In this document: one piece after another, positions 11,023-20,677 of the stretch
How the letters are laid out: each line of letters starts with the position of its first letter
How positions within the stretch are numbered: the stretch's first letter is position 1
DNA from: a virus
Virus record (IMG/VR): IMGVR_UViG_3300024343_000128
Location: 1 to 21,798 of that record
DNA length: 21,798 nucleotides
Reading direction: 5' to 3' (one strand)
Made by a program: the position numbers and the translations under genes
The notes under the pieces: model-generated
The model's input: the letters and a program-made list of their open reading frames with translations, nothing else
The model's database searches: none
What the model was told of the DNA's origin: nothing

Positions 11023-11491
11023 CAACCCCCTGACAATCAGCACTTTAGGTTCAAACATTTTACCTTTTTGTTTAACACATTCCTGCTATCTTACTGATAC
11101 ACAGCGACTTATCGTGGTTGCGTTCAAGTATACCTCTAACTTACGAGCCGTAACTAACTGAAACACAATGACTTCGATCAAGTTAGTTAAACCTTTAGTT
11201 GAGGTGGTATCAAACGACACAATCTGAAGCGATGTCGGAGTCCCTGACGGAACGAAATCAATCCCCCCTCCAGCCCTCCCTACCTCCCACAATCCACCAC
11301 AACTCACCACTAGACTCACGCACTAGTTGTTTTACTGGAGAGCGCTATTTTCCTTCTTGCTTTAAATGTACCCGCGCGTAAGGGAATGTGTCATATGATA
11401 CTATGCAAACTTTTTTTGAAATTTTTCTCGTTGATTATCAATGAGTTAGGAAATAAATGCACTTTTTTCTTGCAAATATGTCAACCATAGT

Positions 11492-11522
11492 TTGCTCATG
11501 TGAGAAATGCTTTGTAGTATTG
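11492..11522 (+). promoter_or_regulatory. Candidate promoter ahead of structured RNA
   Basis: TTG (11492-11494), 20 nt, then TAGTATTG (11515-11522): same spacing as the promoter at 10698 with one mismatch in the -7 box. It would start transcription near 11528, shortly before the boxA-like sequence and the multi-stem RNA domain. Confidence 0.45.
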
Positions 11523-11566
11523 CAGTGTCGTTCGGCTGTTGTTCCGAACACGTTCTTTGAAATGTT

Positions 11567-11738
11567 GGTCAGCCCCCCCGCGAAACCCCGCTCCCTTGTG
11601 CGGTCGGTGAAAGCCCGAGTACCGAGATGAAGTGAGTCATTCTAGCAAGTAGGATGCCGCCCCCGAAGTTGACCAACCCGTGAAATTCTGCCCTCGCCAC
11701 GAGTTGGTGAGACCATTCAAGGAATGATGAAAGGCAGA
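11567..11738 (+). ncRNA. Candidate structured noncoding RNA, multi-branched
   Basis: No coding frame, but many nested stems can be drawn. GGTCAGC (11567-11573) pairs with GTTGACC (11668-11674) and encloses CCGC/GCGG (11588-11591 with 11600-11603) and TCGGT/ACCGA (11604-11608 with 11621-11625). A second branched unit is closed by TCTGCC/GGCAGA (11687-11692 with 11733-11738). It holds two hairpins: CTCGCC/GGTGAG (11693-11698 with 11706-11711) and CATTC/GAATG (11714-11718 with 11722-11726). The hammerhead at 11751-11882 follows directly and would trim its 3' side. I do not recognise a known RNA class. Stems were found by eye without energy calculation. Confidence 0.5.
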
Positions 11739-11750
11739 GCCACCCCGCAA

Positions 11751-11882
11751 GGTTAACTGACGATGGATTGAAGCGGAACAAGGTGGTCGTTAAGGGGTAA
11801 GTATGAGGACTCCCTACATTAACATATAATCCGAAACCAAAAACCAATCTGCCCCTCTTCGGAGGGGCGGGTGGTCTTAACC
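11751..11882 (+). ncRNA. Extended hammerhead ribozyme (type I), enlarged stem II
   Basis: Stem I is GGUUAA (11751-11756) with UUAACC (11877-11882). The core CUGACGA is at 11757-11763 and GAAA at 11833-11836. Stem II is GGAUU (11765-11769) with AAUCC (11828-11832), carrying a 58-nt structured insertion (GUUAA/UUAAC and GGG/CCC can pair inside). Stem III pairs CC (11837-11838) with GG (11873-11874) and continues into a 7-bp hairpin with a UUCG loop (11851-11868). The cleavage triplet GUC ends at 11876. Odd points: one extra U (11764) between core and stem II, and an asymmetric internal loop in stem III. These could lower activity. The 13-nt stem I plus core strand is identical to that of the minimal ribozyme at 14095. 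The next gene starts 18 nt after stem I. Confidence 0.72.
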
Positions 11883-12206: not shown

Positions 12207-12240
12207 CCAACGACCCCCGAAAGGGGGTTTGGTCTTAACC
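12207..12240 (+). repeat. Intercistronic element B: hairpin plus GGUCUUAACC
   Basis: Starts immediately after a stop codon. CCAA (12207-12210) pairs with UUGG (12229-12232), then CCCCC (12214-12218) with GGGGG (12223-12227) on a GAAA (GNRA) loop. GUC (12232-12234) and UUAACC (12235-12240) follow, as in the hammerheads, but no CUGANGA strand is present upstream. The next ATG is 15 nt downstream. Confidence 0.75.
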
Positions 12241-12255
12241 AAAAACTATAGAGAT

Positions 12256-13164
12256 ATGAAAGCAGATGTTGCGCAGAAAGTCAAGATGACTTTGTTGGAA
12301 GGGTTAAAGAAAGATGGTTTGAACTGGTTCAAGCCATGGAAGGGTGGTCTAGCCAACAACCCAATCAACAACTCCAATGGTCGTGCCTACCGAGGCATGA
12401 ATATTTTCATCCTCAACGCCGAGATGCGTTTCAAGGGATACACCTCAAATGAGTGGCTAACCTTCAAGCAGTGCGCCGAGAAGAAAGGCTCGGTCAAGAA
12501 GGGTGAGAAGGCTACTGATGTGTTCTTTTGGAACATCGGATTTATAGCAAACGGAAAGTTCTACAAGAGTGAGCAAGATGCCCTCAACGCTGGACACGAT
12601 AAGAAGGATATCACCAAGACCTTCTCGCTCCGTTTTTACAAGGTGTTCAACATTGATCAATGTGAGAATATCAGCCCTCGCCGAGTGGCGGAGGAGATTG
12701 CAGATGTTGACCCGATTGAATCTGCCGAGGCTATCGTGAAGGGCTACAAGACCGCCCCCAAGATTACCAACTCTACCGAGGACTCTGCATACTATGCTCC
12801 GATGAAAGACCTCGTCCACATGCCCTTGATTGGGATGTTCAAGTCGGCAGACGACTACTACAAGACCTTGTTCCACGAGTTGGTTCATAGCACGGGTCAC
12901 GAGAGCCGTTTGAGCCGCAAGGGGGTAATGAACACCAACCTATTCAGCAAGACCAAAGGTGACTATGCCTTTGAAGAGTTGATTGCCGAAAGCGGTGCGA
13001 TGATGTTGTCGGGGATTGCAAACCTCAATCCATGTGATAGCGACACCAATAGCCAAGCCTACATCAACGGGTGGGTTAAAGCCGTAGAAGACGCAAAAGA
13101 GAGCGCGGTGGTTAGCGCTCTAGTTCAGTCCACTAAAGCCGTGGATTACATCTTGGGAGAATAA
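12256..13164 (+). CDS. ArdC-like antirestriction protein with zincin metallopeptidase domain
   Basis: 302 residues from the ATG at 12256; an earlier TTG would place the start inside element B. The N-terminal part (about 1-130) looks like the ArdC ssDNA-binding domain: WFKPWKGG, then N-G-R-A-Y-R-G-M-N-I, and KKGSVKKGEKATDVFFWNI. The C-terminal part has a zincin site HELVH (207-211) in FHELVHSTGHESRLSRKG, with YAFEELIAE (238-246) providing the third ligand, the pattern of polyvalent-protein MPTase domains. ArdC-family proteins protect incoming DNA from host restriction, so early expression makes sense. It lies between elements B and C, so it may become a monocistronic message. The family call is strong; the peptidase target is unknown. 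Confidence 0.88.
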   Translation: MKADVAQKVKMTLLEGLKKDGLNWFKPWKGGLANNPINNSNGRAYRGMNIFILNAEMRFKGYTSNEWLTFKQCAEKKGSVKKGEKATDVFFWNIGFIANGKFYKSEQDALNAGHDKKDITKTFSLRFYKVFNIDQCENISPRRVAEEIADVDPIESAEAIVKGYKTAPKITNSTEDSAYYAPMKDLVHMPLIGMFKSADDYYKTLFHELVHSTGHESRLSRKGVMNTNLFSKTKGDYAFEELIAESGAMMLSGIANLNPCDSDTNSQAYINGWVKAVEDAKESAVVSALVQSTKAVDYILGE

Positions 13165-13173
13165 GCCCGAGAG

Positions 13174-13202
13174 CCACCCCCCACGGGGGGTAGGTCTTAA
13201 CC
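13174..13202 (+). repeat. Intercistronic element C: hairpin plus GGUCUUAACC
   Basis: CC (13174-13175) pairs with GG (13193-13194) and CCCCC (13177-13181) with GGGGG (13186-13190) on a CACG loop. GUC ends at 13196 and UUAACC occupies 13197-13202. It starts 10 nt after the ArdC-like stop. No catalytic CUGANGA strand is visible. The next ATG is 15 nt downstream. Confidence 0.73.
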
Positions 13203-13540: not shown

Positions 13541-14095
13541 ATGGCTATTATCGCAACCGGAAACGAATACAAACTTCAGTTAGGTACAATTCAAGAACTC
13601 GATGCCGTCATTAAGATGGTCATCAAAGGAATTCCTGACGGATTCTTTGACTTCCAATCGAAAGGAAATCAATTCGCCACACTTGACCTGAGAGCCGACC
13701 TATCATGTGACGACCAACCTCCAGTGTTCTTGGATATGTTCTACAACGGGCTAATCACGAACTACTTCCGAAACTACGACATAGAGTTGGTCACGATGCA
13801 GTCGGATTACGAGAAGGCAAGTAAGAAGTTGAATGCGGTCAACCCACATGCCTGTTGGGAGGATGTCTTGCTACAGGTATTATCTGACGGAAATCTCGTC
13901 TTCGAAGACCACTACCAAGGGATGACGATTGAACTCGACTTAAGTAAGGTGGGAAGCAACTTCCTGAATGCCTTCAACGATGCACCTGATTACTTTATGG
14001 AACTTGTACTACTTCACGCCAACGGAGGGTCGGACGGAATCACCTACGACTCTTGGCTTCAAATGGGGACATACGGAGAAGTAATCTACGGATAG
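13541..14095 (+). CDS. Acidic protein of unknown function, 184 aa
   Basis: Begins MAIIATGNEYKLQLGTIQEL. Rich in D, E, F and Y with no basic tail, no cysteine cluster and no membrane segment. Sections such as TLDLRADLSCDDQPPVFLDM and NLVFEDHYQGMTIELDL suggest alternating beta strands. Its leader is A-rich and has no repeat element. Its stop codon TAG shares its last base (14095) with the first base of the minimal hammerhead, so a cut there would leave the ribozyme's stem III hairpin as this gene's 3' end. Function not recognised. Confidence 0.7.
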   Translation: MAIIATGNEYKLQLGTIQELDAVIKMVIKGIPDGFFDFQSKGNQFATLDLRADLSCDDQPPVFLDMFYNGLITNYFRNYDIELVTMQSDYEKASKKLNAVNPHACWEDVLLQVLSDGNLVFEDHYQGMTIELDLSKVGSNFLNAFNDAPDYFMELVLLHANGGSDGITYDSWLQMGTYGEVIYG

Positions 14096-14145
14096 GTTAA
14101 CTGACGAGTCCTGAATGGACGAAACCCCCTTCGGGGGTCTTAACC
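14095..14145 (+). ncRNA. Hammerhead ribozyme, minimal type I
   Basis: All conserved parts are present in 51 nt. Stem I: GGUUAA (14095-14100) with UUAACC (14140-14145), six pairs, open-ended, hence type I. Core CUGACGA (14101-14107). Stem II: GUCC (14108-14111) with GGAC (14117-14120), loop UGAAU. GAAA (14121-14124). Stem III: CCCCC (14125-14129) with GGGGG (14133-14137) on a UUC loop. A14124 can pair with U14138. Cleavage is predicted after C14139 (GUC). It overlaps the last base of a stop codon, and the downstream product would start 5'-UUAACC, 19 nt before an AUG. Self-cleavage is inferred from the match to the consensus. Confidence 0.93.
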
Positions 14146-14158
14146 AAAACTAGAAAAC

Positions 14159-14395
14159 ATGAATAATACTAGCAGTACAAGAGAAGCTCTCCTCGCCATG
14201 CGAGTGGGAGAGATGAAAGATATCGTGTTCAGCAACGGCATCCTCAAAAGCACCAAAGAGATGTGTCGCAACTCTGATGTGGAGTGGGAGGTGAATAGTT
14301 TCACCGAGGGGTGGATAACCGCCTACATGACCTTGGAAGATGCTATAGATTATGTAGAGGGTCGTAAGGGCTTTAATGACTTTGAGTGGGAATAA
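14159..14395 (+). CDS. Small protein of unknown function, 78 aa
   Basis: Begins MNNTSSTREALLAMRVGEMK. The visible pattern is a short disordered start, a helix, then DIVFSNGILKSTKEMCRNSD and EVNSFTEGWITAYMTLEDAI, ending acidic. It might be a small alpha/beta regulator but I recognise no family. Its ATG lies 13 nt after the hammerhead stem I, so its message is predicted to begin with a 19-nt leader after self-cleavage. Element E follows the stop. Confidence 0.65.
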   Translation: MNNTSSTREALLAMRVGEMKDIVFSNGILKSTKEMCRNSDVEWEVNSFTEGWITAYMTLEDAIDYVEGRKGFNDFEWE

Positions 14396-14415: not shown

Positions 14416-14445
14416 GAAAGGGGTAACGCCCTTTCGGTCTTAATC
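14416..14445 (+). repeat. Intercistronic element E: hairpin plus GGUCUUAAUC
   Basis: GAAAGGG (14416-14422) pairs with CCCUUUC (14429-14435), 6-nt loop, then GGUC (14436-14439) and UUAAUC (14440-14445). The single C-to-U change at 14444 would still pair with GGUUAA through a G-U wobble. No CUGANGA strand is visible. The next ATG is 16 nt downstream. Confidence 0.7.
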
Positions 14446-14461
14446 ATTAACCCGATTGCGT

Positions 14462-14737
14462 ATGCCTACAAAGTATCGTGATTCCAACGGAGAGATGTTG
14501 TACATCTTTTCTTGGTGGGGTGGCGGTGGTAATCATGTCCACGCACCTAACAAAGCGGTCGCTAGAAAACGAGCGATTGCTTTTGGAAAGGGTGTTGCCG
14601 ATAGATACGGCAAGACCTATGAGCAGTCCTTTGAGCGCTCAACGACACTAGTGCCCAACATGGGTACTTTGCGAGCAGTTAACTCTTTTGAGGAGTTTAA
14701 CGACTTTGATAGGGGTCTAGCCATGTTAGCATGGTGA
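14462..14737 (+). CDS. Small aromatic/basic protein of unknown function, 91 aa
   Basis: Start taken at the ATG 14462; the frame opens at a TTG 6 nt earlier. Begins MPTKYRDSNGEMLYIFSWWG followed by GGGNHVHAPNKAVARKRAIA, so a glycine/tryptophan-rich turn precedes a basic helix. The N-terminal half resembles small strand-turn-helix phage proteins, but no named family fits. The 3' end encodes a hairpin (14721-14734) and the stop overlaps element F. Confidence 0.63.
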   Translation: MPTKYRDSNGEMLYIFSWWGGGGNHVHAPNKAVARKRAIAFGKGVADRYGKTYEQSFERSTTLVPNMGTLRAVNSFEEFNDFDRGLAMLAW

Positions 14738-14753
14738 CCTCTAGGTCTTAACC
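14736..14753 (+). repeat. Intercistronic element F: short hairpin plus GGUCUUAACC
   Basis: GACC (14736-14739), loop UCUA, GGUC (14744-14747), then UUAACC (14748-14753). It begins inside the TGA stop of the preceding gene and is preceded by another hairpin, CCAUG/CAUGG (14721-14725 with 14730-14734). It is the most compact member. In this copy the GUC itself is paired in the hairpin, which would hide it from a trans-acting ribozyme. Confidence 0.65.
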
Positions 14754-15527: not shown

Positions 15528-15557
15528 GAAAGGGGGCAACCCCTTTCGGTCTTAACC
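15528..15557 (+). repeat. Intercistronic element G: hairpin plus GGUCUUAACC
   Basis: GAAAGGGG (15528-15535) pairs with CCCCUUUC (15540-15547) on a GCAA (GNRA) loop: eight pairs. GGUC (15548-15551) and UUAACC (15552-15557) follow. It starts one base after a stop codon. It is the last member of the family; beyond it genes overlap directly. The next ATG is 17 nt downstream. No CUGANGA strand is present. Confidence 0.76.
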
Positions 15558-20148: not shown

Positions 20149-20614
20149 AAATACATTCGATAGAGATTTAGAGTCTGGAGATGTTCTAGAGTACCACATA
20201 CTCAAGAGCATACAAAAGAAATACCCAAGAGCCATCAAGCGTATTGGATACTTCAAAGGATATGACCTTTATGTTCCGGAGACCAATACCAAGATAGAGG
20301 TGAAGCGCGACTATAAGTCTAAACACACCGGAAACTTTGTCGTCGAGATAGAGTTTAACGGGAAGCCGTCCGCCCTCGCCACCACTGAAGCAAACTATTG
20401 GGTATTTGCAGACAAAGAACATCTCTATTGGATAGCGGTGGGAGAGTTGCGGAAGCTTGTAAAGGAGCACCCCCAACTCAACCCTGTGTCATTTACGGGG
20501 AAGGGTGATGATCGCGCCAAGCGAGCATACCTAGTTCCCGTGTCTCTAATATCGCGATACAGCGATATGGTAACACCCAATGATTCACCCTATAAACCAC
20601 AATCGCCCTTGTAG
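20141..20614 (+). CDS. PD-(D/E)XK endonuclease, 157 aa
   Basis: E17 in a first helix, then GYDLYVPETNTKIEVKRD (40-57) with D42 and E53-V-K55, the core of restriction-like and resolvase-like nucleases. A following strand-helix unit (VVEIEFNGKPSALATTEANY) is in line with the fold, with more sequence (WVFADKEHLYWIAVGELRKL) completing the sheet. Possible roles: phage resolvase, replication nuclease or host-DNA degradation. The stop codon TAG (20612-20614) lies inside the acceptor and D-arm junction of the following tRNA, an unusual overlap. Confidence 0.72.
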   Translation: MSENTFDRDLESGDVLEYHILKSIQKKYPRAIKRIGYFKGYDLYVPETNTKIEVKRDYKSKHTGNFVVEIEFNGKPSALATTEANYWVFADKEHLYWIAVGELRKLVKEHPQLNPVSFTGKGDDRAKRAYLVPVSLISRYSDMVTPNDSPYKPQSPL

Positions 20615-20677
20615 CTCAACGGATAGAGCAACGCACTTCTAATGCGTAGGCTGCTGGTTCGAGTCCAGCCAAGGGTA
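20605..20677 (+). tRNA. tRNA-Arg (UCU)
   Basis: Complete cloverleaf of 73 nt. The acceptor stem GCCCUUG (20605-20611) pairs with CAAGGGU (20670-20676); the first pair is G-U. The D-stem is GCUC/GAGC. The anticodon stem ACGCA/UGCGU carries the loop CUUCUAA, anticodon UCU. The T-stem GCUGG/CCAGC carries the loop UUCGAGU. The discriminator is A. CCA is not encoded (CTA follows), so it needs host CCA addition. It would read AGA codons. The first 10 nt overlap the nuclease gene. Confidence 0.95.

Follow-up and report, generated by a model that had tools for sequence, protein, structure and literature searches.

The stretch of viral DNA analysed here (the window; 21,798 nt, IMG/VR record IMGVR_UViG_3300024343_000128) carries an array of seven intercistronic modules, consisting of two hammerhead ribozymes and five half modules. 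A half module is a hairpin followed, directly or after 1 nt, by GGUC^UUAA(C/U)C and a start codon (^, predicted cleavage), and it contains no catalytic core. The whole is best explained, with a probability of about 0.68, by a self-cleaving hammerhead at 14095–14145 together with cutting of the half modules in trans or over a long range, catalysis being inferred in both cases.

A compact hammerhead between two phage genes

The junction which we examined in detail consists of the following features:

13541–14095, plus strand: 184-aa protein of unknown function, upstream of the hammerhead
14095–14145, plus strand: compact type I hammerhead ribozyme, predicted cleavage 14139/14140
14159–14395, plus strand: 78-aa protein of unknown function, downstream of the hammerhead

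Stem I is open-ended and pairs 14095–14100 with 14140–14145 (GGUUAA/UUAACC, 6 bp). It is followed by the core strand CUGACGA (14101–14107), stem II (GUCC/GGAC, 14108–14111/14117–14120, 4 bp, loop UGAAU), GAA (14121–14123) and stem III (ACCCCC/GGGGGU, 14124–14129/14133–14138, 6 bp, loop UUC). C17 is at 14139, the cleavage triplet is GUC (NUH), and the catalytic core CUGANGA...GAAA with A15.1-U16.1 is present. The original prediction, made from the letters alone, had listed these elements, and each was found where it had been placed. Two further details proved correct: the last base of the TAG stop codon of the upstream reading frame (13541–14095) is the first base of the hammerhead, and the ATG at 14159 lies 19 nt downstream of 14140, the predicted first base of the 3′ product. 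The minimum free energy (MFE) fold of the isolated element is the hammerhead, which accounts for 30% of the ensemble. Loop II follows the consensus U-N-A-N-U, its three specified positions being conserved in 140, 125 and 115 of 141. This is suggestive of a tertiary contact of loop II with the region of stem I, but there is no stem I loop.

The covariance search which had been proposed as a check gave a divided result. The best Rfam matches, RF00163 (Hammerhead_1; 19.2 bits, gathering threshold 34) and RF03152 (RAGATH-1-hammerhead; 21.6 bits, gathering threshold 56.3), did not lead to a call for 14095–14145, whereas a family-specific model built from 26 relatives without the window scored 64.2 bits (E about 6e-15; E-values of the covariance tool are rough). 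The compact phage form is shorter than both Rfam models, and Rfam alone is blind to it. A gathering threshold is a curation rule and no defining structural feature; to treat the lack of a significant Rfam score as refutation, as had been proposed, is too narrow for this element.

Chance similarity was assessed with a structural descriptor. It had no match in 100 dinucleotide shuffles of the window. In 123 viral loci and the window together, the structural scan identified 169 hammerheads, whereas reversed copies (1.13 Mb) gave none, so that the hammerhead at 14095 is not a product of chance. Most of the hammerheads from the scan lie 15–30 nt before an ATG. A pattern search of IMG/VR with the TTAA of stem I fixed and stems II and III free matched at least 120 stretches, with complementary stems in nearly all of them. 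Among genome contigs there were 45 matches, many of them chance matches by structure; genomes of Pedobacter, Mucilaginibacter and Aquimarina are among those with genuine ones (same-family hammerheads in L134, L136, L144 and L156, possibly prophages).

In the alignment of the 26 relatives, 100% of the cells are paired. Two-sided changes occur in 12 of the 15 pairs (five in stem I, three in stem II, four in stem III), far above slid controls. The catalytic core is invariant in the relatives. An orthologous hammerhead is found at the corresponding junction of contig L122, where the gene upstream is 91% identical. It reads GGUUAA-CUGACGA-GGAU/AUCC-GAA-AUGCCGA/UCGGCAU-C; stems II and III have both been replaced and re-paired, and GUC has become AUC. 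L122 and a further contig, L123, both retrieved by protein, contain complete hammerheads with different stem I sequences, and thus stem I varies as well.

The structural scan, the covariation and the family-specific model strongly support a minimal type I hammerhead at the junction of two phage genes with the same orientation. We regard this identification as practically certain, while self-cleavage is only inferred. The intercistronic position had been called a distinctive use, which cannot be upheld: hammerheads before start codons are widespread in phages, as the 169 found here and earlier work (PMC3088659) illustrate, so an intercistronic phage hammerhead is not new in itself. Type III hammerheads before start codons were also seen (L114 10505, L237 981, L208 4262, L018 6103, L057 747, L067 5427, L297 25929 and L295 994). 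Some phages carry both types, and those with type III include the cultured Flavobacterium phage elemoC and Pelagibacter phage HTVC019P.

A second ribozyme and five half modules in the window

Absent from the original prediction were a second hammerhead and the five core-less sites with the common GGUC^UUAA(C/U)C. These sites, which lie beyond the coordinates given there and repeat the substrate sequence of the ribozyme, are the unusual feature. The array contains, besides 14095–14145:

11751–11882, plus strand: second, probable hammerhead, predicted cleavage 11876/11877
12213–12240, plus strand: half module 1, hairpin and UUUGGUC^UUAACC before ardC, GUC at 12232
12256–13164, plus strand: ArdC-like antirestriction protein (Pfam ArdcN, E 1.6e-25; MPTase-PolyVal, E 1.3e-26; PHROG 7245 anti-restriction)
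13176–13202, plus strand: half module 2, hairpin, A and GGUC^UUAACC, GUC at 13194
14416–14445, plus strand: half module 3, hairpin and GGUC^UUAAUC, GUC at 14437
14710–14753, plus strand: half module 4, long hairpin and GGUC^UUAACC, GUC at 14745
15528–15557, plus strand: half module 5, hairpin and GGUC^UUAACC, GUC at 15549

The element at 11751–11882 has stem I GGUUAA/UUAACC, CUGACGA, an extra U that recurs at this place in many relatives, and stem II GGAUU/AAUCC, which closes a loop II insert of about 60 nt. A GAA-ACCA arm follows, and the element carries its own half module (hairpin and GGUC^UUAACC). It is less certain than the first hammerhead, as folding into the hammerhead in cis is about 5 kcal/mol less favourable than the MFE.

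At all five half modules an ATG lies 21–24 nt further on. The C to U change in half module 3 keeps a G.U pair with the ribozyme arm. At the junction of half module 2, L122 has a complete hammerhead. Half module 1 can form a 6-bp stem III with the arm ACCAAA of the ribozyme at 11751, whose own match in cis is 4 bp; all other stems III predicted in trans within the window have 3 bp. Cofolding of the window ribozyme strands with the half modules did not recover the canonical junction, and no window-like half modules with a GAAAGG...CCTTTC hairpin were found elsewhere.

Host and neighbouring genes

One uncultured record aside, the window terminase is closest to those of Flavobacterium and Cellulophaga phages, so that, judged by this protein, a phage of the Flavobacteria type is likely. 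Related hammerheads occur in cultured Flavobacterium elemo phages and in Pelagibacter phages. The ardC gene lies inside the array with a half module on either side. Hammerheads beside ardA have been described in bacteria (PMC3088659), and we observed ardA near a hammerhead in Pelagibacter phage Jormungand. DNA similarity of ardC or of the group A modules described below to named phages was not found. A long leader (11480–11750) with a boxA-like GTTCTTTGAAA precedes the array, and the leaders of contigs L001 and L088 (see below) contain GCTCTTTGAAT and a Bacteroidota-type −7 box. These leader elements, all recognized by eye, are suggestive of antitermination of an early operon. A tRNA-Arg (TCT) gene is located at 20605–20677 among small phage genes.

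Core-less sites in other phage lineages

By its sequence hallmarks, the arrangement with core-less sites is also present in at least three further lineages, plus a weaker fourth. Group A comprises the contigs L033, L035, L038, L070, L075, L098, L199–L203 and L205–L207. It has a single ribozyme per contig with the arms GGUUAA and ACACCG, normally first in the array and, where the contig continues, followed by between one and five core-less GGUGUC^UUAACCA sites. Contig L203 stops at the ribozyme; L206 starts inside the array and has two sites and no ribozyme. In the 29 distinct half sites of group A the upstream GGUG, which lies outside the search anchor, is invariant, and the invariant block GGUGUC^UUAACCA equals the footprint of the ribozyme arms plus one A. 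On the module strand, TTAACCA comes next in 47 of 53 occurrences of GGTGTC. Phage C75C1, with a terminase 74% identical to that of group A, lacks the ribozyme and the sites alike.

L001 and L088 share a leader which ends in UCCGUGUC^UUAACC and stands ahead of unrelated genes; a search for other leaders of this type yielded only these two contigs. Their ribozymes are nearly identical up to GAAACACGGA and divergent thereafter. The arm ACACGGA pairs over 7 bp with the leader site, against just 3 contiguous bp in cis; this arm has been retained while the rest of the cis hairpin has diverged.

Lineage D (L307 and L309) was retrieved via the ardC gene and not via the motif. It has one ribozyme (GUAAUA...GAAACGU; arms GUAAUA and ACGU), followed by seven core-less ACGUC^UAUUA(C/U) sites, each accompanied by a hairpin of its own. 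Neither the arms nor the sites are those of group A, yet within each lineage the two match. In an unbiased search for 10-mers that recur ahead of ATGs, the substrate motifs of group A, lineage D and the window rank among the highest. In L062 a single half site accompanies five complete ribozymes, and its pairing in trans includes G.U; as support for use in trans this case is weak.

Hairpins abutting the half sites (−4 kcal/mol or lower) are present at 29 of 32 sites compared with 9% in the background; the hairpin of window half module 4 is longer than the 30 nt used in this test. When enzyme strand and half module were cofolded, the canonical three-way junction arose ab initio at each of the four L098 sites and also for L001 and L088; the substrate hairpin then either adjoins stem III or lies at most a few nucleotides away. 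For lineage D the canonical complex was not recovered. In the 75–150 nt upstream of the half modules of the claimed lineages no CUGANGA was found besides isolated core-like matches in L201 and L070, which are without a hammerhead, and no unpaired catalytic strands are left in the half-module contigs. Separate NUH sites flanked by complements of the enzyme arms are present. Pairing in trans is better than in cis only for L001/L088 and for 11751 with 12232; it is equal in group A and lineage D, and weaker (3 bp) at the other window sites. Since most phages of the hammerhead family contain complete hammerheads only, use in trans would be a minority arrangement.

Several candidates were discarded. 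Core-less GTCTTAAYC occurs in about 80 further phage contigs; the cases with start codon and hairpin are full hammerheads and the rest appear to be chance matches. Apparent orphan catalytic strands in other phages, considered as pure trans enzymes, are ordinary type III hammerheads with the substrate upstream, and the one in L137 is type I with a very long stem III. The ardC-carrying phage L332 has a repeated intergenic hairpin, CACAATAAC...GTCC-GCGTTATTACTA, before ATGs (724, 1148 and 1388); it has no hammerhead core and no Rfam match and is unrelated to hammerheads. On the module strand of L287 (IMGVR 3300049491_000350), seven hammerhead cleavage sites and two other starts are followed by copies, nine in all, of a conserved hairpin in the leader, which may be an H-type pseudoknot (AGUCAGGUGCAGACUAUAACAGGCAC). 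Its stems covary (AGUC/GACU, AGAC/GUCU), and it has no match in Rfam.

Proposed mechanism: one core for several sites

We propose that, while an early polycistronic phage mRNA is being transcribed, 14095–14145 cleaves itself at 14139/14140. The upstream message would then end in the stem III hairpin, and the downstream gene would receive a short 5′-OH leader starting with UUAACC. The five half modules of the window would be bare substrates in which GGUC^UUAA(C/U)C follows the hairpin. The ribozyme strand GGUUAA-CUGACGA-stem II-GAA-ACC would pair with them through a stem I of 6 bp and a stem III of 3–6 bp; the substrate hairpin would abut stem III, and cleavage would take place either in trans or over a long range within the same transcript. 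A single catalytic core could in this way serve several gene junctions. Each cut at a half module would produce an upstream message with a terminal hairpin and a downstream message with a uniform A-rich leader; the presumed benefit is monocistronic messages whose 3′ ends are shielded by a hairpin and whose leaders are uniform.

Sequences, structures, covariation, co-occurrence and the matching of sites to arms in independent lineages are observations, while catalysis, in cis as well as in trans, and the benefit of the array are inferred. That hammerheads act in trans on core-less sites is in our opinion probable, although cleavage has not been shown. With somewhat less assurance, we favour the wider proposal that several unrelated phage lineages employ a natural trans-acting hammerhead as a sequence-specific RNA endonuclease, with up to seven hairpin-GUC junction substrates, which would convert a polycistronic early mRNA into single-gene messages, arms and sites co-evolving. 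As stem III in trans is mostly 3 bp in the window and cofolding fails there, the case rests mainly on group A, L001/L088 and lineage D, and is extended to the window by analogy, on the basis of the shared architecture.

The absence of cleavage data counts against use in trans. In addition, the ribozyme's own site in group A and lineage D is identical to the other sites, so complementarity in trans is implied by that in cis, and the arm match could reflect a shared element with another role. This leads to the main rival: the hammerheads would act only in cis, and the half modules would be an independent conserved leader element for translation, protection of mRNA 3′ ends or protein binding, to which a hammerhead 5′ half was once added. 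The fixed distance to the start codon in all copies would also fit. We nevertheless consider it rather unlikely, because the element, although it differs among lineages, in every case covers the arm footprint and ends in a GUC that can be cleaved, and because the only deviations seen in stem I preserve G.U pairs. The clearest evidence against it comes from L001/L088, where the arm matches the remote site and not its own; the ribozyme at 11751 likewise matches 12232 better than itself.

Alternatively, the half modules might have arisen by decay, as hammerheads from which the 5′ half has been lost; the window would then be a degenerating array with two surviving cis ribozymes. The junction that is complete in L122 and half in the window could be understood in this way, as could the restriction of most relatives to complete hammerheads. 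Decay, however, would not be expected to leave uniform sites, and group A and lineage D each keep 3–7 half sites around a single core, with invariance across the 29 group A copies. Moreover, the hairpins are maintained with unrelated sequences and usually end immediately ahead of the stem III strand, whereas a remnant of stem III would include that strand; we therefore give decay little credence. Still less can be said for the element at 14095 being a chance or inactive look-alike or an intrinsic terminator, in spite of the Rfam scores below gathering, a stem III that is a short, GC-rich hairpin and a modest folding z-score (−1.74). This reading is strongly disfavoured by the E-value of the family model, by the L122 orthologue with its re-paired stems and by the invariant core among relatives. 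No T-tract follows the hairpin at 14095 (UCUUAACC), and a terminator reading of the module hairpins was rejected for the same lack.

Relation to known hammerheads

Type I hammerheads clustered around prophage genes, including antirestriction genes, were reported in 2011, and some of these arrays were shown to cleave (PMC3088659). They resemble the window in having the same core and in flanking small and antirestriction genes (Perreault et al., 2011, PMC3088659; review PMC6155905), with ardA in place of ardC, and were likewise proposed to process long phage transcripts. Those arrays consist of complete cis ribozymes; core-less substrates keyed to one ribozyme are not described there. The permuted SGC and CSG hammerheads (Eckert et al., 2023, PMC10085705) show that natural hammerheads exist with the C, G and S strands in another order. 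They form a single compact cis unit, whereas in the phage arrays the S strand is hundreds to thousands of nucleotides away and multiplied. The nearest natural precedent for such distance is the discontinuous hammerhead of the mammalian Clec2 3′UTR (PMC6155905), in which enzyme and substrate strands of one transcript meet across a long insert; it is of type III and eukaryotic and has one substrate per enzyme, whereas one enzyme in the phage arrays would have substrates at several gene junctions. Laboratory trans-cleaving hammerheads (PMC6155905) also use a two-armed enzyme strand to cut NUH sites, but are engineered, while the phage arrangement is genome-encoded and has a substrate hairpin abutting stem III. 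In the open-access literature we came across no description of a natural hammerhead enzyme shared by several substrates. The element at 14095 joins a known kind of hammerhead; the arrays with one enzyme and many sites are, within that literature, a new variation.

The role of prokaryotic hammerheads has been described as an open question (PMC6155905). The half modules make the idea of mRNA processing testable, as each predicts an exact cut for which a ribozyme located elsewhere should be required, and the elemo and Pelagibacter phages offer tractable systems. If the proposal is true, these would be, as far as the open-access literature was searched, the first natural hammerheads that act on sites other than their own. 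They would be among the very few natural RNA enzymes besides RNase P that work in trans, and would provide ready-made, naturally selected parts for RNA processing.
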